Assembly (NCBI GenBank): GCA_028689115.1
Contig: JAQTWV010000001.1
Span: 783,539-847,538 of the forward strand
DNA length: 64,000 bases
Source: Candidatus Altimarinota bacterium
Lineage (GTDB): Bacteria > Patescibacteriota > Gracilibacteria > BD1-5 > UBA6164
Direction: 5' to 3'
Positions 48,721-63,950 of this stretch are shown here, in pieces (position 1 is the first letter of the stretch; each line of letters opens with the position of its first letter). A program made the translations under genes and the position numbers. Under the pieces are notes generated by a model. The model had not been told where the DNA came from. It searched no databases and worked only from the letters and a program-made list of their open reading frames with translations.

Positions 48721-50202
48721 TTATATAGATTCACATTGACTAGTTACTAAATTATTTTCCATTCATAACCATTTTTCAAATACTTTTTTATCCTCTTCAA
48801 CTCTTATCTTTCAAAATAAATAATCAAGTACAGCATAATCAAGAATTCTTTTATGATCTTTTGCGTAAGTTGGGATTATATTTCAAGATAATTTATAACT
48901 ATGAATTGGACAAACTCAAATGTATGGTTTATATACACTTTCATTGTAACCCGGTAATCAATCTAGAGTCGATGCTTGAACCATTATTTTTGTAGTTTCA
49001 CTTTCAATCATATTTTTATATGTTTCACTTCATGAATCAGTAACCTCAGTCATCAAAAAATTATCATCTCACATTCTTCAAAGCATTCTTCATTCATCAC
49101 AAGAGTATATTTTTCAATCATAATTATAAGCAACTTGACCAATACAAGCTCAACATGGACTTCTTTCATCTAAGAAATTAGGGTCCTTATTTGTAAGTAT
49201 TTTTGATAAATATATAGATGATAATGCTTCTTTAAAAATTACTCATTTTTTATTTAATTCTATTATATAATCAAGAGATTTTTTATAAAATTCTATAAAC
49301 TCTTCTGGTTCATAACCTAGTTTTTCTAATTCAGCAGCTGCAAAACCATATGGATTTAATGGTCTTAAAAATATTCAATCAAGTCATAATCATACATATG
49401 TATCTATTACCTCTTTATATCTAGAAAGTGTTTTTTTAGTTACTGTAAGTAAAGCTCAGACCTTAGTTTCAATTCATCTATTTACATATTCTTGATTTAT
49501 TCTTTTTATCCAATAAGTTACTTTTTCAAAACTATTACCTTCCTTAAATGTTCTATTAAAATTATGAGTTTCTTCATCTCAATCTAAACTTGTAGAAATT
49601 TGAACATTATGAGTTATTAAATAAGCTAACTTTTCTTCATCCATTAAAGAAAGATTTGAAACGATTGCAAAAGTTAAATTTTTATTTAAATGAAGTGCTT
49701 TAATTTCTGCATATTCTATTATATATTTTACTATATCCCAATTAACAAGTGATTCTCATCATTGAAATTCAATAGTTAAACTTGGATTACTTGTAAAAAA
49801 TATAGTATCAACAACTTTTTTAGCAGTATCAATTGTCATATCCATATCTTTGGCAGTCATAGGAGCAACTGCTGCATGACAATATTGACATTTATGATTA
49901 CATCTAAGTGTTGTAACAATTATATGAAGTGATGGTCAATATCTTAAAAATTCATTTTTTAAAGCAAATGCTGAAGCCATTTCTTTTTCATAATCAGAAT
50001 TTTTAATAAATTTTTTATTTAATAATTCATCATACTTTTCTCACTGTTTTAAATTACCTGATATGAAATCAGAAAATTCACTTTTTGTTAAAAATGAATA
50101 TTTAGCTATATCATTTGTAATAAGATAATCATCTCAAAATTTTTTAAATCTAAAAAATCATGTATTATTATCTATTTTTTTTAAATTATCTAATTTTAAC
50201 AT
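48721..50202 (-). CDS. hxsB: His-Xaa-Ser system radical SAM maturase, HxsB-like
   Basis: 493 residues. N-terminal domain of 95 residues with FFRFKKFGDDYLITND, then Cys101-Cys105-Cys108 (CNHKCQYCH) and FQGGESLVNWDIV. The HxsB-typical C-terminal block RSPCGACIGQVAYNYDGKIY, SCDEGRMLGRMGDD is present, giving SPASM cysteines, with YIGVCPIHSYK and a last cysteine CES near the end. I assign it from this block and from the HGS-repeat precursor and HxsD-like neighbour. It probably makes the first modification at the repeats. Confidence 0.86.
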
Positions 50203-50243
50203 TTTAATTTTTTATAAAATACATAAAACTATAAAAAGATATT

Positions 50244-50438
50244 TTATAGCTCATTTATTAATCAAGTAAGGTAATTCATAAACTCATTAAATATATTATC
50301 TATATCCTCTTCATTTCATTCAATAGATAATATTTCATTTTCATAAGTCATTTCTGATACATCTGAAAAATCATCTATTGTTTGTAAAACAAATGATTCA
50401 GGATAAAAATAACTACTTATTTCAAAACTTTTGCTCAT
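50244..50438 (-). CDS. small acidic protein between HxsD-like and HxsB-like genes
   Basis: 64 residues, ATG start. Sequence begins MSKSFEISSYFYPESFVLQ and is rich in Asp/Glu (ENEILSIEGNEEDIDNIF), no Cys or membrane segment. It could be a second HxsD-like fragment or a leader-binding/precursor protein; too short to decide. Position 16 bases after the HxsD-like gene and 41 before HxsB-like makes it part of the same operon. Confidence 0.6.
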
Positions 50439-50454
50439 ATTTTAAATATTAAAC

Positions 50455-51018
50455 TTATTTAATAAATTGCTCTTTTGCTTTTTTAAATCAATCTAAATCC
50501 ACTTTTATCATTGGTTTTTTTCCTTCTAATTCAGATTCTTCTTCAATTTCTTTAAGTATTCTTTCAATTTCTTCTTCATCAATTTTTAAATCAGGATCAT
50601 TTTCTATTTCTCTTAAAATATCATCTATATCTTTATCAAAATCAATTTGGTTTTGTTCAGTATTATTTGAATCAGTATTTATTTGAACAAAATTGTTTGA
50701 ATCTAAACTATTTGCAATAGCAGCTCAAACGATAGCTTCTCTTATAGTTTTATTTTCTTTTTCTAATTTATCTCTCAAATATACAGATAATAATTCATCA
50801 CTAAAATCTGCAATGATATTTTCTGGTTTTTCAGTATTATCTTCTCTTTTTGTAAAAACTAAAACTATATTTCAATCATTATTTAATTTAAAAAAGAAAT
50901 ATCATCTTTCTAAAAAATTATATGCAGCTTTTAATACTATATCTTTATTAAAAATATCTTTATCTATAACTAATTCAAATTTAACTCATTCTATAATATG
51001 ACTCAAAAAATTTTCCAT
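50455..51018 (-). CDS. hxsD: HxsD-like His-Xaa-Ser system protein
   Basis: 187 residues. The first 110 residues match HxsD in plan: VIDKDIFNKDIVLKAAYNFL, a short beta segment, then DFSDELLSVYLRDKLEKENK and TIREAIVGAAIANSL. HxsD is the small conserved component of the system, perhaps for precursor recognition. The C-terminal 75 residues are very acidic (long Asp/Glu-rich helices) and extra to the family. First gene of the island, preceded by a -10 TGTATAAT at 51062-51055. Confidence 0.75.
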
Positions 51019-51054
51019 ATATTCGTCTTTATTAAATAAAAAAATATTTAACTT

Positions 51055-51062
51055 ATTATACA
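51055..51062 (-). promoter_or_regulatory. extended -10 promoter element of the His-Xaa-Ser run
   Basis: TGTATAAT on the minus strand, about 37 bases before hxsD and directly after the U-tract of the ATP synthase terminator. TTGGTC lies 16 bases upstream inside that terminator stem. Confidence 0.5.
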
Positions 51063-51106
51063 AAAAAAAATAAGAAGACCAAATCTTTTTTAGTCTTCTT
51101 ATTATT
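51063..51106 (-). terminator. terminator of the ATP synthase operon
   Basis: Arms AATAAGAAGAC / GTCTTCTTATT around a 13-base loop, followed by nine T on the minus strand. It overlaps the promoter region of the next operon. Confidence 0.85.
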
Positions 51107-51537
51107 TACTTTAAAGTATCACTTAACTTTAATTGTGCAATAGATTTTAAAAGCATATCTTCTGCTTCTATATATTTTTCCATATCAAGTTTATCAGTAC
51201 TATCTCTATATTTTTCCATAAGTTCAATAGCTTTATTTCTAGCTCTTTCTGCAACTCAAACATCTAAATCATCAATATCAACTAACATATCAACCATGAT
51301 TTTTACTTCATTATCACTAACTTCAACAAATCATTTTCATACAGCATAATCATCTCTTTTTTCAACTCAAGAAGAATCTATATATAAAAAATATAGTGTT
51401 GAAGGTTTTATACTTGTAAGTAATGGTGAATGATTATCCAATATAGTTATTTCTCAAATAGTAGTCATCAAAGTTATAGAAACAACATCATCTGAAATAA
51501 AACTTTTTCATGAAAATGATAACATTTTTAATTTCAT
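51106..51537 (-). CDS. atpC: F-type ATP synthase epsilon subunit
   Basis: 143 residues, usual length. Central-stalk subunit regulating rotation. Beta-barrel start MKLKMLSFSGKSFISDDVVS and TTIGEITILDNHSPLLTSI, followed by a C-terminal helical pair (DLDVGVAERARNKAIELMEK, ...KYIEAEDMLLKSIAQLKL). Last gene of the atp operon. Confidence 0.9.
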
Positions 51538-51559: not shown

Positions 51560-52960
<1,401 letters not shown>

Positions 52961-53007: not shown

Positions 53008-53340
53008 TTATTTTATTTCTTTGTTTACGTAGATTTTTAAATCTTCGTCAATTGGTTCTTTATTTTCATCATTTTTTTCATTAACTATTTTTTTTGATAC
53101 ATTAGTAAAAATAGAAATATAAAATATTTTTCTAAATAACAATGTAATAAGTAATGATAAAAAAATAATTAAAACTGCTATTTTTACATGAATAGGGTCA
53201 TCACTAGCAGGAATTGTTTTTCCCATTATTGATAAAACTAATCAGAAAAGAAAATTTCCTGCAGTAATAAAAATAAATGAATAAAAAACAAATAATAAAG
53301 AATTAATAAACAATTTTAACAAAGTAAATAATGCTTTCAT
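53008..53340 (-). CDS. small membrane protein inside the atp operon
   Basis: 110 residues with two membrane segments (about 11-37 and 50-68) separated by MGKTIPASDDPIH, and a charged C-terminal tail (KKIVNEKNDENKEPIDED). It lies between atpG and atpD, where standard operons have no gene. No similarity to AtpI or AtpZ that I can see. It might assist in c-ring assembly or ion supply. Co-directional, 61 bases after atpG and 47 before atpD. Confidence 0.75.
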
Positions 53341-53401: not shown

Positions 53402-54316
53402 CTAAACTTCTTTCATAGATTCTACTCAAGCCGTTATTTCAGAAACTTCACTTGTAATACTTGCTTGTCTAGCTTTATTATATTTTAGAGTTAATGCTCA
53501 TGCTATTTTATTAGCACTATCTTTTGCATTTTTCATAGCAATCATTCTAGAACTATGTTCACTTGCTTTAGCATTAAGTAAAACATCATAGAACATCATA
53601 TCAAGAATCATTGGAATAACATCTGAAATTAATCTTTCAGGACTTGGCTCTATATCATATATAAAACCATTTTTCATATCTTCAATTTCTTTTTCAAGAT
53701 CTATATGTCCTTCTAAAATTGAAAATAAATAATTTTTAATATCAGATGAATCAATAGGAAGACTTACCTTTGCAACCGGAATTTGTCTAATTGTATTTAC
53801 GTAAAAATTGTAAAACACAACTACTTTATTATACTTTCAAGAAAGAAATTCTTCTCTCATTAACTCAGATATATGTTTTGTAAAAACAGGTTCTAGATTA
53901 TCTGAAAAATCTTCACTAAAATCAGCAATTAACTTATTTCAAGTTCTAACAATGAAATTAGCTGCCTTTTTTCAAACTGCAATATATTCAAGTTCTTCTC
54001 CAGTTTCTTTAATGTATGAATTAACTTTTTTCATAACATTAACATTGTAACCTCAACATAAACCTTTATTAGAAGTAACAACTATTGCTAGAGTTTTTCC
54101 AGAAGTAGCTTTATTTGAAAAAAGAGGAAATTCAGATAGAAAATCTTCTACTCTTAGAAATATTTTAAACATTTCTAAAACAAAATTTCTTTTTTCAATT
54201 GCTAAATCTTGAGCCTTTTTCATCTTTACAGTTGAAATTAGCTCCATAGCTTTAGTAATTTTTGCAGTATTTTTTATGGAACCTATTTTTCTTTTTATCT
54301 CTTTAGCATTTGCCAT
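53402..54316 (-). CDS. atpG: F-type ATP synthase gamma subunit
   Basis: 304 residues. N-terminus [20 protein letters not shown] and [17 protein letters not shown], the coiled-coil that rotates in F1, then [16 protein letters not shown], and the C-terminal [19 protein letters not shown] with [16 protein letters not shown]. All are strong AtpG signatures. Ends with TAG. Confidence 0.97.
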
Positions 54317-54340: not shown

Positions 54341-55846
54341 CTATTTATTTAATTCAACAACTCTTTTAATAACTTCAACCAATTTTTTCTCAGTATCTTC
54401 TGACATTTGTTTTTCAGAATCAATAGAAGCTAAAATTGTTTTTTCTTCTTCTAATGAAGTGTATAAATCAGCTTCAAATTTAGCTACTTTTGATACATTT
54501 ATTTTATCTAAATAACCTTTTCAACCTGCATATATAGAACAAATTTGTTTTGCAACAGTTACTGGAGAATAAACTCATTGTTTTAATAATTCCATCATTC
54601 TAGCACCTCTATCTAATTGAGCTTTTGTTTCAGAATCAAGATCAGAAGCAAATTGTGAAAATGCAGCTAATTCTCTATATTGAGCTAGGTCTAATTTAAG
54701 AGTACCTGAAACTTTTTTCATACCTTTTATTTGAGCAGAACCTCAAACTCTTGAAACTGATAATCATACATTGATTGCTGGTTTTTGACCTGCATTAAAT
54801 AAGTTTGATTCTAAAAATATTTGTCCATCAGTAATAGAAATTACGTTTGTAGGAATATAAGCAGAAACATCTCAAGCTTGAGTTTCAATGATTGGAAGAG
54901 CAGTCATTGATCCAGCACCTAATTCATCATTTAATTTTGAAGCTCTTTCAAGTAATCTAGAGTGAGTATAAAATACATCTCATGGATAAGCTTCTCTACC
55001 TGGTGGTCTTCTTAATAATAATGACATTTCTCTATAAGCATTTGCTTGTTTAGTTAAATCATCATAGATAATTAATGAATGTTGTCCATTAAACATGAAA
55101 TATTCAGCCATAGCACAACCAGCATATGGAGATAAATATTGCATTGAAGCAGGACTAGAAGCTCAAGCTGCAACTATAATTGTATAATCCATAGCTCCTC
55201 TTTTTTTCAATTCTTCAACAATTCTAGCAATTTTACCTTCTTTTTGACCAATAGCAACGTAAACACAAGTTACTCATTGACCTTTTTGATTTAAAATAGC
55301 ATCTATAGCAATTTGAGTTTTACCAGTTTGTCTATCTCAAATTATTAATTCTCTTTGACCTCTACCAATTGGTACTAAAGCATCAATAGCTTTAATTCAA
55401 GTTGTCATTGGTTCATGAACTGATTTTCTAGCCATAACTCAAGTTGCAACTCTTTCAATTGGGTAAGTTTCAGTTGATTTAATTTCACCTAATCCATCTA
55501 TTGGATTTCAAAGTGCATCAACAACTCTACCAATTAATCAAGTTCCTACTGGAACTTCTAATATTTTACCAGTTGAAAATACTTTTTCTCCTTCTTTAAT
55601 AGAATTAAATCCAGATAAAACTACTATTCAAACAAAATGTTCTTCTAAGTTTAATGCAATACCTCTAGCACCTGATTCAAAATCTACTACTTCATTATAT
55701 GAAACTTGACCTAAACCAGAAACTTTAGCAACACCATCTCATAAATAGAAAACTTCTCCAACATTTCAAACTTCAGGATTTAAATCAACTGAGTCTATTT
55801 TGTTTTCTATTTCACTTATAATACTATTTAATAAGTCTTTTGACAT
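54341..55846 (-). CDS. atpA: F-type ATP synthase alpha subunit
   Basis: 501 residues, usual length. Non-catalytic nucleotide-binding subunit. P-loop [14 protein letters not shown], then a [14 protein letters not shown] block, YTIIVAASSSPAS, and [18 protein letters not shown] with [16 protein letters not shown]-terminus [19 protein letters not shown]. Preceded by a short atpH. Confidence 0.97.
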
Positions 55847-56254: not shown

Positions 56255-56728
56255 TTATTTAGTTAATACTTCTAATTCTTTTTCAAAAAAATCTTTGTTT
56301 GCAGATTCTTTTGAAAATATTTTAGAATTTAATTTTAAAGATAAATCCAAGATTTTAGATTTCATTGAATTATTCATATCCAATCTATCTTTTTCTATTT
56401 CAGTTTTAGCTCTTTCTAAAACATATACTGCTTCTTTTTCTGCTTTTTCTAAAATTTTTGCAGTATTTTGTTTAGATAACTCATCTGCAGATTTTTCAAT
56501 ATCAGATGCTTTAGCTCTTGCTTCATTAAGTATTTTTTCTACTTCTTTTTCTGCATCTTCTAACTTGTTTTTTGCTATATCATCAGCTTCAGCTGATGCT
56601 TTTAAAAATTTTCTTCTTTCTTCAATAGCATTTGCTAATTTTTCTCAAAGAAAATGTTTAAACATAAAAAACAATATTCAAAAATTGATCATAGCAGCAA
56701 AAATCAACTCTAATTTTAAATTTTCCAT
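56255..56728 (-). CDS. atpF: F-type ATP synthase b subunit
   Basis: 157 residues. N-terminal membrane helix (LKLELIFAAMINFGILFFMF) and a long charged helical rod (EERRKFLKASAEADDIAKNK, EDAEKEVEKILNEARAKA), the peripheral stalk. Usual length. Only one b gene is seen. Confidence 0.92.
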
Positions 56729-56757: not shown

Positions 56758-59013
56758 TTACCCAATTACTTTGAAAGCAATTAATAATCAATATATAGCC
56801 ACAACTTCAACTAATGCAACAAATAGTACCATAAATGCTAATGTTTTTGATTTTTGTTCAGGATTAACATTCATTCATTCTATTGAACCACTAATGATAT
56901 ATCATTCTCAAACTCATGCTCATAATCAAGCAAATCAGATTGCTAATCATGCTCATATTGAAGCAAATCAAGCAATAGTAATTCAAGATAAAACTTTAAA
57001 TGATATTACTAATCAATATATTGCTGCAGATTCTACTAAAGCCATTCACAATATAGTAACAGTTAGAAGGAATCACATCATCATTGGGTTTCTTCACATA
57101 ACTTGAATTGATTTTTCAGCCAACATTCATTCTCAAATACTTACTCATAATCAAGCAAATCAGATTGCTAATCATGCTCAGATATAAATCATTTGATCTA
57201 TATTTTGATCTGTTGATCAAGCTAATATTTTAAAAGCTACAACTAATCAATATATTGCTGCTGATTCTACTAATGCAATGAACAACACCATAAATGTCAT
57301 AATCTTTGATTTTACTTTTGGATTTCTTGACATAGCTTGAATTGCTCAAATAACCAACATACCTTCTCATAATCAAGCTCCTAATCATGCTAATCAGATT
57401 GCTAATCATGCTCAAATACTTGCTCAAATACTTAATCCAGCTATACCTGACATTTTGAATGCCACTATCAATCAATAGATTGCTGCTGATTCTACTAATG
57501 CTATACCTAATATTGTTACCGTTAAAAAGTATCACATCATCTTCTCTTGTTTTGCCATCATTTCCATTGATTTCTCTGAAAGTATTCATTCTCAAATACT
57601 TACTCATAATCATGCTAATCATACAGCTAATCACATACCTATAAATGCTTGGCTTGTGAAATCTACATCTCATAGTATCTTAAATGATATTACTAATCAA
57701 TAGATTGCTGCTGATTCTACTAATGCAATGAATAACACCATAAATGTCATCAATTTTGATTTTAAATGTGGACTTGTTGCCATTGAAGATATTGCTCAAG
57801 CAACCAACTTACCTTCTCATAATCAAGCTCCTAATCATGCTAATCAGATTGCTAATCATGCTCAGATACTTGCTCAAATACTTAAACCTACTGTTCAATA
57901 CATTTTGAATGCAACTATCAATCCATAGATTGCTGCTGATTCTACTAATGCTATACCTAATATTGTTACCGTTAAAAAGTATCACATCATCTTCTCTTGT
58001 TTTGCCATCATTTCCATTGATTTCTCCGCAAGTATTCATTGACCAATTGCAACTCATAATCATGCTAATCATACAGCTAATCACATCCCTATAAATGCTT
58101 GGCTTGTGAAATCTGTACTTCATAATATATTAAATGATATTACTAGTCAGTATATTGCTGCTGATTCAACTAGTGCAACAAACAATACCATAAATGTCAT
58201 CAATTTTGATTTCAAATGTGGACTTGTTGCCATCGAAGTTATTGCTCATGCAACCAATTTACCTTCTCATACTCAAGCTCCTAATCATGCTAATCAGATT
58301 GCTAATCATGCTCATATTCAAGCAGCCATACTTAAACCTACTGTTCAATACATTTTAAATGCAACTATAAGTCCATAGATTGCTGCTGATTCTACTAATG
58401 CAATTCAAAGAATAGTTACTGTCAAAAAGTATCACATCATCTTCTCTTGTTTCGCCATCATTTCCATTGATTTCTCTGCAAGTATTCATTGACCAATCGC
58501 AACTCATAATCATGCTAATCATACAGCTAATCACATTCCTATAAATGCTTGGCTTGTGAAATCTGCATCTCATAGTATTTTAAATGCAACTACTAATCCA
58601 TAGATTGCTGCTGATTCTACTAGTGCGACAAACAACACCATAAATGTCATTATTTTTGACTTTAAATGTGGACTTTTATCAATTGCAGTAATTGCTCATG
58701 CAATTAATTTACCTTCTCATAATCAAGATCAAAATCATGCTAATCAAATAGCTAATCATGCTCAAATACTTGCTCAAAGTGATATTCATTCAATTGAAAG
58801 TATTTTAAATGCAACTATCAATCCATAGATTGCTGCTGATTCTACCAAAGCAATACCTAATATAGTTATAGTTAAATAAAAAGATGACATATCTTTATTT
58901 TTTCACATAACCTCTGCTGCTTTTTTTCACAAAATTCATTGACCAAGTGCTACTCAAATTCATGAAATTCAAATAGCTAATCATGCTCAAATAAAATTTA
59001 CTAAATTTTCCAT
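56758..59013 (-). CDS. atpE: ATP synthase c subunit, ten fused hairpins in one chain
   Basis: 751 residues in one open frame made of ten c-subunit hairpins of about 75 residues (20 membrane helices), separated by no stop or start. Each has a helix-1 glycine motif (GAGLAIGLAG type), a polar loop and helix 2 with the ion-binding Glu, ALVESAAIYGL in hairpins 1-9 and VEVVAIYG in 10. Two kinds alternate: one with AEKSMEMM-like loops, one with EGKLVAGAI. Helix-1 ligand Gln occurs in hairpins 1, 3 and 5, Glu in the others. Glu-Ser and Tyr five residues after Glu match Na+-binding c rings. A single polypeptide may form the whole c10 ring. Normal c is about 80-90 residues, from one gene copy. Confidence 0.93.
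56770..58990. repeat. tandem ~225/450-bp coding repeats of atpE
   Basis: Hairpins 3, 5 and 7 and hairpins 4 and 6 are nearly identical at DNA level, giving a ~450-bp higher-order period of two hairpins. Blocks such as ATCACATCATCTTCTCTTGT recur. Outer hairpins (1, 8, 9 and 10) are more diverged, which fits unequal recombination in the middle of the array. Confidence 0.85.
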
Positions 59014-59048: not shown

Positions 59049-59882
59049 CTAATGAACCTTAACTACTTTAATAAAAATTGCTACTAATAGTGGAAATACT
59101 AATGCTTGAATTATTGCTACAAGTAATCATTGAACATGTAATATAATTGGAAACAAGATTGGGAAATCAATTCCAATTACTAAATTTGTTAATGCTACAG
59201 TTCAAGCTAATAACATTCACATAAGCATAGTACCAGAAGTCATATTACCAAATAACCTAAATGATAATGAAATTATTTTAGCTAAATGTCCAACTACATC
59301 TAGTAAACCTAGAAATAATGAAATAACTATATCAAAAAATTTAACCATTAAAAACAATGGAATATCTATATACTTATTTAATTTACCAGTTTCATAAGGA
59401 ATATAGTTTTTTCATAAGATAGGAACATATTCATATATAGCTTTTCAAAATCATAAGAATTTAAATTGTTCATATAAAACAATTAGAACTCAAATTATTG
59501 CCATAGCTACGTTAAAATTTATATCAGAAGTTGGAATTGATATATGATGATGTAATTGAGGAAATCAAACTCAAACTATATCAAAAGCAATTCACATTAA
59601 ATTTGAAAATAAAATTATATAAAACATAGTAATTATATATAATTTAGTCCATTTTTTTTCTTCTTTTCATAATATATCTTCAAAAAAAGAATAAGCTCCT
59701 TCATAAAGCATATCAAAAAATACTCAAAAACTAGAATTAGGTTTTTTAAGTAAAACTATATATATAGTTACCATTATTATAAATTCTAAAAGAATTCATG
59801 CAAAAAAAGGATTCAATCACCAGTGTCAGTTTTCTCACACTATAAGATATGATCATAAAAAATTGTTTATAATTATGTCCAT
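59049..59882 (-). CDS. atpB: F-type ATP synthase a subunit
   Basis: 277 residues, about five or six membrane helices. The ion half-channel subunit. The stator Arg is in ISLSFRLFGNMTSGTMLMGM, the AtpB signature. Later VQGLLVAIIQALVFPLLVAI, with Gln at the usual position. First gene of the operon, followed 35 bases later by atpE. It must face a ring made of covalently joined hairpins. Confidence 0.95.
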
Positions 59883-60107: not shown

Positions 60108-60143
60108 ATAAAAATAATCCTCTTTAAAAGAGGATTATTTTTA
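60108..60143 (-). terminator. terminator of the beta-propeller gene
   Basis: AATAATCCTCTT / AAGAGGATTATT with A/T runs, overlapping the TAA stop at 60141. Confidence 0.8.
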
Positions 60144-62435
60144 TTTTAGTTTTAACTTAAAAATTTCTTTTCAAGTACTTATATTATTTGATGATACATA
60201 AGAATTTGAAACAGCATAAGAATTATCTCATATCCATAATCACCTTTTTATAAAATCTTGGTAATAATTCCAACTAACTGAAGCTAAATATTCTCATACA
60301 GTAGAACCAGCATAACAATATTTTGGTACATAACTATAAACCTTATTTTCACAATACTCAGTTCAATTTATCAGCTTAACACAACTATTTTGAGTTGTAT
60401 CTACAGTATACTTACTACATTCTTTTACTCTTGCATCTTCAAGTCCAGCAGTATCAATATGTGTAATCCTATAATTTTCTTTTATTCAAGAATCATTATC
60501 TATTGTCATAACAAGTAATCAATTGAAAAAATCTGTATATCTATAAATATCTGTTTTATCACTTTGATATAATGAAACAGGTAAAAATAATTTTTTATCA
60601 CTTGCTTTCCACATAAACATTCTTGGGTTATCTAAAGCTTCACTAGTGCTTCAATTTCATCAAAATGTTTTTGTATATTTTTGTTTAACAATAATTCATT
60701 TATAAACTCAAGAATCACAATTTGTTTTTTCTTCACTAGTTAAATTAGAATCACCACATTTTTTATCATAATTTATTTCATATAAATCTACTTTAATTCC
60801 AGAATTAATAGTTCCTCACCATTGATTTTCAGTAGTATCATATCATAATCCAATTAAATGATTTGCATCATATGGATGTAAATATGTACTATAACCTGGA
60901 ATTTTTAATTCTCAAAGAATTTTTGGTTTAGTAGAATCAGCTACATCTATTACAAAAAGTGGATCAACTTGTTTAAATGTAACTAAAAATAATTTATCTC
61001 ATATGTATCTACTAGATTTGAATTGTTCTCAATTTCAAAGATTTGTAAGAGATGATTTTAAATCTAGATTCTTATCCAATATATATAAATTAGTATAACT
61101 TTCATTTGTAGTACTATTCCAATTATTAGTTTGTGTAAGTATTCTAAAATCTGTTTTATACTCATCCATACTATATTGAGTTAATGGAGTTCAAGGTATG
61201 ATTGTAGAATCTTGATAATTTAATTTATTTCCTGAAATATTTAATTTATGTAAAAGAGTATTAGCTCATTTTGGAAACCAAGGAGCAAAACATCTAGCAT
61301 TAATTGGACAAGAAAAATTATAACTTTCATACATTTGAGAAGTTAGATATAAATTATCTAAACTCATAAATATTTCATTATTACTTCAAGCAATAACTGT
61401 TGTTTCAACTTTTTTAGAAGTATTTTTTGTATCAATTACAGAAATTACATTATAACTTGGATTAAACTCGTATTGTTTTACAGTTTCTGCGTCTGGTAAA
61501 ACATAACTTATATTAGTACAATCTGCTACATTTCAAGCAGTTACACTATACGGAAGAGTTGTTCATTTTATTTTTAAATTTTGATTTGATTTAACACTTG
61601 TTTTAGAAATATCTATTTTTTGAGGCATAGTCTTAGAAAGTGTAAAATCTATGTCATCTTCAGTTTTAAAAGTATAATAAGGAATATTGAAATAATTATT
61701 TGAAATTACATATACATAGTCACCTATCTTTCTAGATTGAGTAAAATCTCCATCAGTAATATATAATTTTTCTAATTTAGGAGAAGTAACATCTGCTATA
61801 TTAAAAACTATAACATAAGTTTTATTATTTCTATTTATATAATATCATCTTGATGAATAATCATAATTTGAATATCCACTAGAAATAATAGTTAAAGAAT
61901 TATAACCTAAATACAAAACAGGATTATAAAATGAATCTGGAACTTTAATTTTTTTCAAAATTTCTTGAGAATCAACTCAAACTATATAAACATAATGATC
62001 CTTATCATTATAATAATATATATTTTTTCAATCAGTTTTTATAATGTCTGATTCATCTACTCAAGCAACTTGAGTATTTGTTTTTCAAAAGTCAGAGCTT
62101 GATGCAGATCAAGCAACTTGAGAAGTAACCATATCACTTGATAATCAACCTAATGGTGCATCTAAAATTGCTTGTTCATCGATTGACTTATTATAATAAA
62201 CTGGTCAATAATTATAAAAACGATCTTTATTATTTTTCCAATATGTTTTTATGTAATCATTCATTACATTTTCCATATTATCACAACTATTAAAAGACTT
62301 CAATTTAAAATCTGAAGTCAACGTTTTTACTTCTTGTCATTGTAACTCATCAATAATAGAGTTATCTTCAACTGCTGCATTTACAGAAGAAAAAGTAAAT
62401 AAACCTAAAAACAACAATAAAAAATATTTTTTCAT
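60141..62435 (-). CDS. secreted beta-propeller domain protein
   Basis: 764 residues. Signal peptide MKKYFLLLFLGLFTFSSVNA. After about 100 residues the segment TNTQVAGVDESDIIKTDGKN matches the start of the C-terminal beta-propeller family (PF09826-like); repeated strands such as VYIVGVDSQEILKKIKVPD, VIVFNIADVTSPKLEKLYI and FVIDVADSTKPKILGELKI are the blades. The function of the family is unknown; it is extracellular. An ECF-type promoter lies upstream (62474-62499), so it is probably controlled by the sigma factor at 63399. Confidence 0.87.
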
Positions 62436-62473
62436 AATATATTTATTAAAAAAATAAAATACTTCAAATATTG

Positions 62474-62499
62474 AAACGATACTAAAAATAAAAAGTGAC
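62474..62499 (-). promoter_or_regulatory. ECF-type promoter of the beta-propeller gene
   Basis: On the minus strand GTCAC (62499-62495), a 16-base T/A-rich spacer, CGTTT (62478-62474). The same GTCAC...CGTTT pair with 15-base spacing lies before the ECF sigma gene at 63959-63983, typical for an autoregulated ECF regulon. Confidence 0.6.
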
Positions 62500-62502
62500 A
62501 AA

Positions 62503-62535
62503 AAAACCATAAAATTAAAATAATTTTATGGTTTA
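62503..62535 (-). terminator. terminator of the sigma/anti-sigma operon
   Basis: AAACCATAAAATTA / TAATTTTATGGTTT with a T run on the minus strand that runs into the -35 of the beta-propeller promoter. Confidence 0.75.
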
Positions 62536-63398: not shown

Positions 63399-63950
63399 TT
63401 ACAAAATTATTAAAATCATAATTAAAATAAGGAAATTAGCACTTATAACTTTTAATGTTCTACTAACAATTTTTTTACAATTATCAACACTCAATCAAGT
63501 AATTTCAGATATTTCCTTATAAGATAAATCATCCCATATCCTATAAATAAGTATATCTCTATGCTCTTTTTTTATAGTTTTTAAATATCAAAATACTTCT
63601 TTTAATTTATCCTTATTATCTAAATCTTGAGCAAAATCAGAATTAACAGACATTTCTAAATAATCTCAAATATCTAAATTTTCTTTATTTGTCCTATAAA
63701 AATCTATTACTTTATTATAAGCTATCTTGTATAACCAAGCTTTTACAGATGATCATTCTTCAACTCTAAAAGAATTTATATTATTTAAAGCACTCATAAA
63801 AACATCGCTAACAATATCTTCAGCAACCTCCTTATTTGTAGTTTTTAAATAAACAAAATTATATATTTTATCAATATATCTATCATATATTTCTCAGAAA
63901 TAATCTAGGTTTCAACCTAAACATTTTTCCATTAATTTAAGATCATCCAT
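63399..63950 (-). CDS. ECF sigma factor
   Basis: 183 residues. Region 2: FGEIYDRYIDKIYNFVYLKT (about 28-47), EVAEDIVSDVFMSALNNINSF and WLYKIAYNKVIDFYR. Region 4: LIYRIWDDLSYKEISEITGL and VDNCKKIVSRTLKVI. The C-terminus is unusually hydrophobic (FLILIMILIIL), about a dozen residues beyond the normal end, and may attach to the membrane or to the anti-sigma partner. First gene of the sigma/anti-sigma operon, with an ECF promoter upstream. Confidence 0.92.

Follow-up and report, generated by a model that had tools for sequence, protein, structure and literature searches.

We analyzed a 64,000-nucleotide stretch of contig JAQTWV010000001.1 from a Candidatus Altimarinota bacterium (the window), in which a complete F-type ATP synthase/ATPase operon lies on the minus strand and the gene between atpB and atpF, at 56758-59013, encodes rotor subunit c as one chain of ten c-type hairpins (Table 1). 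The genes are transcribed in the order a, c, b, a short probable delta, alpha, gamma, a 110-amino-acid open reading frame (ORF), beta and epsilon, and the F-type set of a, b, delta, alpha, gamma, beta and epsilon is present, delta being recognized weakly by Pfam. Assignment of the c gene as an A/V-type subunit K was rejected because the operon holds F-type gamma, epsilon, alpha, beta, a and b.

Under NCBI translation table 25, in which TGA encodes glycine, the minus strand of 56758-59013 forms a single open frame of 751 codons and a stop; 95 in-frame TGA codons are read as glycine (95 of the 121 glycine codons in the gene), and no other stop precedes the end. The plus-strand reading and the table 11 reading were both rejected, as each leaves the interval full of stops. 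TGA as glycine fits the organism, since the neighboring atp genes are intact only under this code, most relatives found to share the c gene by a TGA-aware DNA pattern search are named Candidatus Gracilibacteria, and UGA has been demonstrated by proteomics to encode glycine in a BD1-5 bacterium (PMC4032931). A protein-query search of genome contigs and viral contigs for related loci found none, probably because most glycine codons are TGA. A 24-base pattern for the motif VESAAIYG, written with TGA for Gly, matched five times in the window and not once in 100 shuffles, and the c repeat array is therefore far beyond chance. The gene is under strong purifying selection as a coding sequence in code 25, as judged from the ratio of nonsynonymous to synonymous differences (pN/pS), which was 0.11-0.29 over eight window hairpins relative to the sister genome G002, values for the final two hairpins in the G002 comparison and for hairpins 6-7 in that with a second relative, G005, being excluded as products of ungapped comparisons out of register.

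The Pfam ATP-synt_C profile (PF00137) matched the 751-residue product in ten stretches (E=1.4e-142, 464.5 bits) and TIGR01260 scored 245.1 bits against a cut-off of 43.95, so that by homology the protein is an F-type subunit c above the family cut-off. In length and hairpin number it departs from the standard short single-hairpin c of about 70-100 residues, around ten separate copies of which normally make up a rotor ring, and it is a fused variant rather than a standard c. The ion-binding Glu of helix 2 is kept in all ten hairpins (residues 58, 133, 208, 283, 358, 433, 508, 583, 661 and 736), 75 residues apart except for a single interval of 78. A preliminary description, made from the letters of the window alone, had proposed an open frame with ten hairpins, each with this Glu; its coordinates are exact, and the frame and hairpins are confirmed on the minus strand under table 25 and by PF00137; the in-frame stop that it had named as a possible objection does not occur before the frame ends. 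Odd-numbered (A) and even-numbered (B) hairpins alternate, with 3, 5 and 7 and likewise 4, 6 and 8 grouping in an identity matrix, and the tandem-repeat period of 450 bp corresponds to two hairpins. Across the complete set of contigs (a 1.23-Mb assembly in four contigs, 79.95% complete, the window lying on a 971-kb contig), PF00137 gave exactly these ten matches and no other c gene, a PF00119 search of the same assembly found no second gene for subunit a, and the separate atpE about which the preliminary description had cautioned was likewise not encountered; the ring-sized array in one gene is the only source of c in this 80%-complete assembly.

The same architecture recurs in relatives. Of the 47 further genomes that the set examined contains for this family, 42 supplied atp loci, whose ORFs were re-called under code 25 with a hidden Markov model built from the hairpins. 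Complete c genes across this Gracilibacteria family contain 1, 2, 4, 6, 10 or 12 hairpins, with chains of at least four in 9 of its 20 genera. Six genomes carry a 12-hairpin single ORF (Table 1), and in five of them (G002, G030, G036, G037 and G039, rated 87-97% complete) all hairpins found sit in that ORF. Two 6-hairpin genes each were found in G001, G003 and G004, two 4-hairpin genes in the one-contig genome G035, and a single 4-hairpin gene in G028 and in G032. G038 has a 6-hairpin gene, and in G005 and G026 a contig end interrupts the c gene. A search of related genomes for fused F-type c, which the preliminary description had proposed, was thus rewarded within the family. Outside it, none of the genomes searched in the class (353 in total, from 34 families) exceeds four PF00137 matches, and 59 genomes sampled across the wider phylum showed no long array, their c matches falling mostly in single- or double-sized frames. 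The longest exact repeats in the 12-hairpin genes of G011, G030, G036 and G039 are 20, 53, 54 and 65 nt, respectively, which ordinary reads can resolve, so misassembly is an unlikely cause of the long chains, and four 12-hairpin chains, representing three genera, can be aligned over their full length with 66-79% identity. The fused multi-hairpin c recurs in independent assemblies and is, as a kind, not an assembly artefact.

Some loci depart from the one-gene arrangement. An extra fused c gene lies upstream of subunit a at L047:3045-4397 (six hairpins), L048:3782-5134 (six), L056:7927-10635 (twelve) and L079:11372-12265 (four), where the c gene between a and b has six, six, two and four hairpins, respectively. 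At L049:3-1787, in G005, which is nearest to the window by subunit a, the A/B alternation is broken by two consecutive A-type hairpins at 5-6, and single-hairpin insertions may also occur.

The number of hairpins is less secure than the architecture. On a tree of alpha and beta, the window genome is sister to G002, with its twelve hairpins (Shimodaira-Hasegawa-like approximate likelihood-ratio test, 96), and the rest of the genus has 6+6 hairpins; on a tree of subunit a, the nearest relative is G005, whose gene, with at least eight hairpins, is truncated by the contig end. Hairpin counts in the remaining complete fused chains of the family are 2, 4, 6 or 12; as all of these divide 12, twelve looks like the ring number of the family. 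In G002 two A-B units are identical in DNA, forming a 599-nt exact repeat, and its twelve hairpins would read as ten if this repeat were collapsed. The true window gene may by the same route hold twelve hairpins (c12), one near-identical 450-bp A-B unit having been lost in assembly, an alternative to which we give only slightly less than an even chance. The longest exact repeat in the window gene, however, is 102 bases, at the 450-base period, the 971-kb contig of a four-contig assembly may rest on long reads, and tandem units can also be lost naturally. Whether ten reflects true loss of one A-B pair (c10) or a collapsed c12 is thus near even, and the proposal of the preliminary description that ring size is fixed at ten is not established. 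Collapse would keep the single-chain reading and remove only c10.

The residues that line the ion sites point to Na+. In Fusobacterium nucleatum, whose c11 ring (PDB 3zk1) is assembled from eleven separate identical subunits, the Na+ ligands are Glu32, Glu65, Ser66 and the Val63 carbonyl, Tyr70 is hydrogen-bonded to Glu65, and Ilyobacter has glutamine in place of Glu32 (PMC3692424). The signature Q/E32-E65-S66-Y70 is present at exact spacing in nine of the ten window hairpins, the tenth having Val66; six carry the full Glu32/Glu65/Ser66/Tyr70 site and three more have Gln32, in a chain that, unlike the F. nucleatum ring, is fused, with non-identical hairpins and with Ala in place of Thr67. With this signature in nine of ten hairpins, Na+ is the most likely ion of the window ring, carried for the most part by two-carboxylate (Glu32/Glu65) sites. 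The expectation of the preliminary description that the non-identical sites stand in a fixed order is borne out: the 10-hairpin protein and all six 12-hairpin proteins begin with QESY and end with EEVY. Elsewhere in the family, Arg replaces Gln/Glu at position 32 (RESY) in one or two hairpins per chain at L074, L080, L072, L076, L079, L082 and L070, and Met is found in four A hairpins of G030; such sites should, from their residues, bind ions differently and yield rings with fixed, unequal sites.

Further support comes from relatives with two Fo modules. In G006, G007, G012, G017, G018, G020 and G027 (loci L050, L051, L057, L061, L062, L064 and L071) the operon reads a2-c2(x2)-b2-a1-c1(x1)-b1-delta-alpha-gamma-(orf)-beta-epsilon; the second Fo module lies elsewhere in G008 and G021, and a contig ends near the junction in G019 and G022. 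The a1 and a2 subunits split deeply in a tree. Type-1 c, a single hairpin, has the H+ pattern I/V-E-A-Y, whereas type-2 c, a double, has Q/E-E-S/T/V-Y (or F), and the assembly of the window genome contains only type 2 Fo. The two modules are possibly interchangeable motors on one F1. An H+-coupled ring despite the Na+-like motif is unlikely in our judgment: ion choice does depend on conditions and on details of the site, and both the Ala at Thr67 and the missing Ser66 of the last site are in its favor, but the type-1 c that co-occurs in relatives carries the plain I/V32-E65-A66-Y70 pattern against the Q/E-E-S/T-Y of type 2, and different ions are the easiest explanation for keeping two types of Fo.

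These modules also suggest how the long chains arose. The ancestral state would likely have comprised an H+ Fo and a Na+ Fo with a double-hairpin (A-B) c; after loss of the H+ Fo, the double would have grown into longer chains, mostly of 12 hairpins or its divisors, through duplication of the A-B unit by unequal recombination to give 4, 6 and 12 hairpins. Five of 15 doubles are QESY-EEVY, the motifs with which the 10- and 12-hairpin chains begin and end, a pattern consistent with growth between an original A and an original B. Because long chains are scattered among short ones on the F1 tree, expansion or module transfer has happened more than once, and minimum parsimony on the partly unresolved tree of subunit a gave four changes between fewer than six and at least six hairpins.

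Taken together, 56758-59013 is very probably the only gene for the rotor in a complete F-type ATP synthase/ATPase operon of a code-25 Gracilibacterium, and its product a single-chain ring of the Na+ type. We infer that the chain stays uncleaved and that one chain, with 20 membrane passes in its ten hairpins, would fold into the whole c ring. Both termini of c subunits lie on the outer side; short linkers on that side would connect each helix 2 with the following helix 1 and would need to span neighbors only, and each hairpin would supply the carboxylate for the transported ion. Each ATP would cost 10/3 or 12/3 ions. An AlphaFold2 model of the 10-hairpin protein has 20 helices joined by linkers of about 5-8 residues (mean predicted local distance difference test score (pLDDT) 69, predicted template modelling score (pTM) 0.55), and a model of a 12-hairpin protein reached pTM 0.79 at mean pLDDT 70. 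The best Foldseek matches of the latter were designed single-chain closed helical barrels or toroids and solenoids, which lend weak support to ring closure; no c ring was among the matches listed, which says nothing against a ring. Foldseek with the 10-hairpin model matched, at partial coverage, the c1 subunit of Acetobacterium woodii and V-type doubles; rings in the PDB are multi-chain.

Several points weigh against this interpretation. The chain is read from gene sequence, with which cleavage or use of only part of the hairpins is compatible; model confidence is middling, and likeness to a toroid says little on stoichiometry; ten hairpins is unlike every complete relative; a monomeric c gene may lie in the missing part of the 79.95%-complete assembly; position 67, which is Thr in Fusobacterium, is Ala; and motifs are indirect evidence of ion specificity. 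Proteolytic processing of a precursor into single or double hairpins, which would then assemble like ordinary c subunits, would accord with the separate double-hairpin c subunits of relatives, in which smaller units are evidently viable in such an enzyme. The linkers, however, are short and, at a 75-residue period, regular, no shared cleavage motif is apparent in them by eye, and cutting would leave unexplained why chain lengths divide 12, so we regard processing as improbable. That the frame is a pseudogene or an assembly chimera, with a normal atpE used from the 20% of the genome outside the assembly, is scarcely credible given the purifying selection, the intact frame, the conserved synteny, the same architecture in independent assemblies and the lack of any other PF00137 match in the assembly. 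We therefore retain the single-chain ring: the central proposal of the preliminary description, a bacterial F-type c ring made as one multi-hairpin polypeptide, is well supported and recurs in relatives, its figure of ten is not established, and the Na+ signature, the H+-type Fo of relatives and the family-wide series had escaped it.

The genes that flank the operon are of other kinds. Directly downstream, 48721-51063 encodes a His-Xaa-Ser peptide-modification system with an HxsB radical S-adenosylmethionine maturase (498.9 bits), HxsD and an HxsD-like protein. On the other side, 60141-62510 encodes a 789-residue protein with a strong Beta_propel domain (PF09826), and the adjoining ORF at 63399-63950 is sigma-factor-like by eye. 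The 110-residue ORF within the operon matched no family above cut-off in Pfam and TIGRFAM-type profile searches.

Table 1. Features of the atp operon in the window and 12-hairpin c genes of relatives.
Feature	Position or contig	Strand	Evidence or remark
c-ring gene, one 751-residue polypeptide, ten c-type hairpins	56758..59013	-	Pfam, code 25 frame
Hairpin 1, type A, Q32-E65-S66-Y70	58795..58992	-	ligand positions
Hairpin 2, type B, E-E-S-Y	58570..58767	-	ligand positions
Hairpin 3, type A, Q-E-S-Y	58345..58542	-	ligand positions; 100% identical in amino acids to hairpin 5
Hairpin 4, type B, E-E-S-Y	58120..58317	-	ligand positions
Hairpin 5, type A, Q-E-S-Y	57895..58092	-	ligand positions
Hairpin 6, type B, E-E-S-Y	57670..57867	-	ligand positions
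Hairpin 7, type A, E-E-S-Y	57445..57642	-	ligand positions
Hairpin 8, type B, E-E-S-Y	57220..57417	-	ligand positions
Hairpin 9, type A, E-E-S-Y	56986..57183	-	ligand positions
Hairpin 10, type B, E-E-V-Y	56761..56958	-	ligand positions; Ser66 ligand lost, likewise in last hairpin of every 12-hairpin chain
Tandem array, 450-bp (two-hairpin) units, about 87% matches	57242..58876	-	Tandem Repeats Finder; identity matrix
atpB, subunit a, Na+-type (type 2) Fo	59049..59882	-	PF00119 E=9.8e-28; deep split from type-1 a; sole a gene in assembly
atpF, subunit b	56255..56728	-	PF00430
Probable atpH, short delta, 119 residues	55885..56244	-	position; kept in relatives; PF00213 E=0.053 only
atpA, alpha	54341..55846	-	Pfam
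atpG, gamma	53402..54316	-	Pfam; TIGR01146 above cut-off
Conserved extra ORF, 110 residues, two hydrophobic stretches, in gamma-beta gap	53008..53340	-	same place in most relatives
atpD, beta	51560..52960	-	Pfam; TIGR01039 above cut-off
atpC, epsilon	51106..51537	-	Pfam
G002 12-hairpin ORF	JAQUZB010000004.1
G011 12-hairpin ORF and separate double	CAJXJP010000027.1
G030 12-hairpin ORF	JAMONT010000090.1
G036 12-hairpin ORF	PDTW01000008.1
G037 12-hairpin ORF	DIUG01000001.1
G039 12-hairpin ORF	JAQTXG010000001.1

A natural single-chain F-type rotor is, to our knowledge, new. The F-type enzyme of A. woodii is Na+-driven, and its double-hairpin c1 (PDB 4bem_J) is the best PDB match of the window protein in both sequence (3e-13) and Foldseek searches; its ring, however, is heteromeric, with one c1 and nine single-hairpin c2 chains, whereas no monomer gene was found in the window assembly. 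The closest precedent for the long fusion is subunit K of Methanopyrus kandleri, with 13 hairpins in an archaeal A-type enzyme (PMC2359735), which resembles the window protein in being one long hairpin chain, presumed to form the whole rotor, with a Na+ ligand set in each hairpin. The window protein differs from it in its bacterial F-type operon, A/B alternation and 10-12 hairpins per chain, and in the graded 1, 2, 4, 6, 12 series inside one family. With V-type K/c doubles it shares hairpin duplication and fusion, but every window hairpin keeps its Glu, unlike the Enterococcus hirae double (2bl2), which binds one ion (PMC2359735). That a single-chain architecture can work follows from an engineered single-chain c10 of Bacillus PS3, active with Gly-Ser-Ala-Gly linkers (Mitome 2004, as described in PMC8809890); it likewise has ten c hairpins and short linkers in one F-type chain but is man-made, of the H+ type and built of identical hairpins, whereas the window chain is natural, Na+-type by motif and heterogeneous. 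Passages found in three papers on Gracilibacteria and Absconditabacteria (PMC6851277, PMC8080830, PMC11452946) discuss the F-type ATP synthase in terms of protons, with Na+ considered for Vampirococcus, and do not mention a fused c; F-type subunits are reported from Gracilibacteria metaproteomes in PMC11452946; we found no report of one in Gracilibacteria or the Candidate Phyla Radiation in the open-access literature. What appears new here is the bacterial F-type, single-chain, Na+-type rotor, multi-hairpin fusion itself being already known from M. kandleri.

Ring size sets the number of ions per ATP, and differences between species are hard to study in rings of identical monomers. In a family that encodes its ring in one gene, with closely related members showing 1-, 2-, 4-, 6-, 10- and 12-hairpin forms, the evolution of ring size can be followed in the DNA sequence. 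The family also provides natural examples of rings whose sites are fixed and non-equivalent, previously obtained only by engineering. The finding also bears on the puzzle of what role an ATP synthase plays in Gracilibacteria and relatives without an evident electron transport chain, for which the literature argues mainly from protons (PMC6851277, PMC8080830). More tentatively, and with somewhat less than even confidence, we suggest that the family has a natural one-polypeptide F-type ring whose ion-to-ATP ratio is set, and evolves, by gain or loss of hairpin pairs, in a lineage where H+ and Na+ Fo served as alternative motors for one F1; if so, the step from 12 to 10 hairpins would shift the cost from 4.0 to 3.33 ions per ATP.
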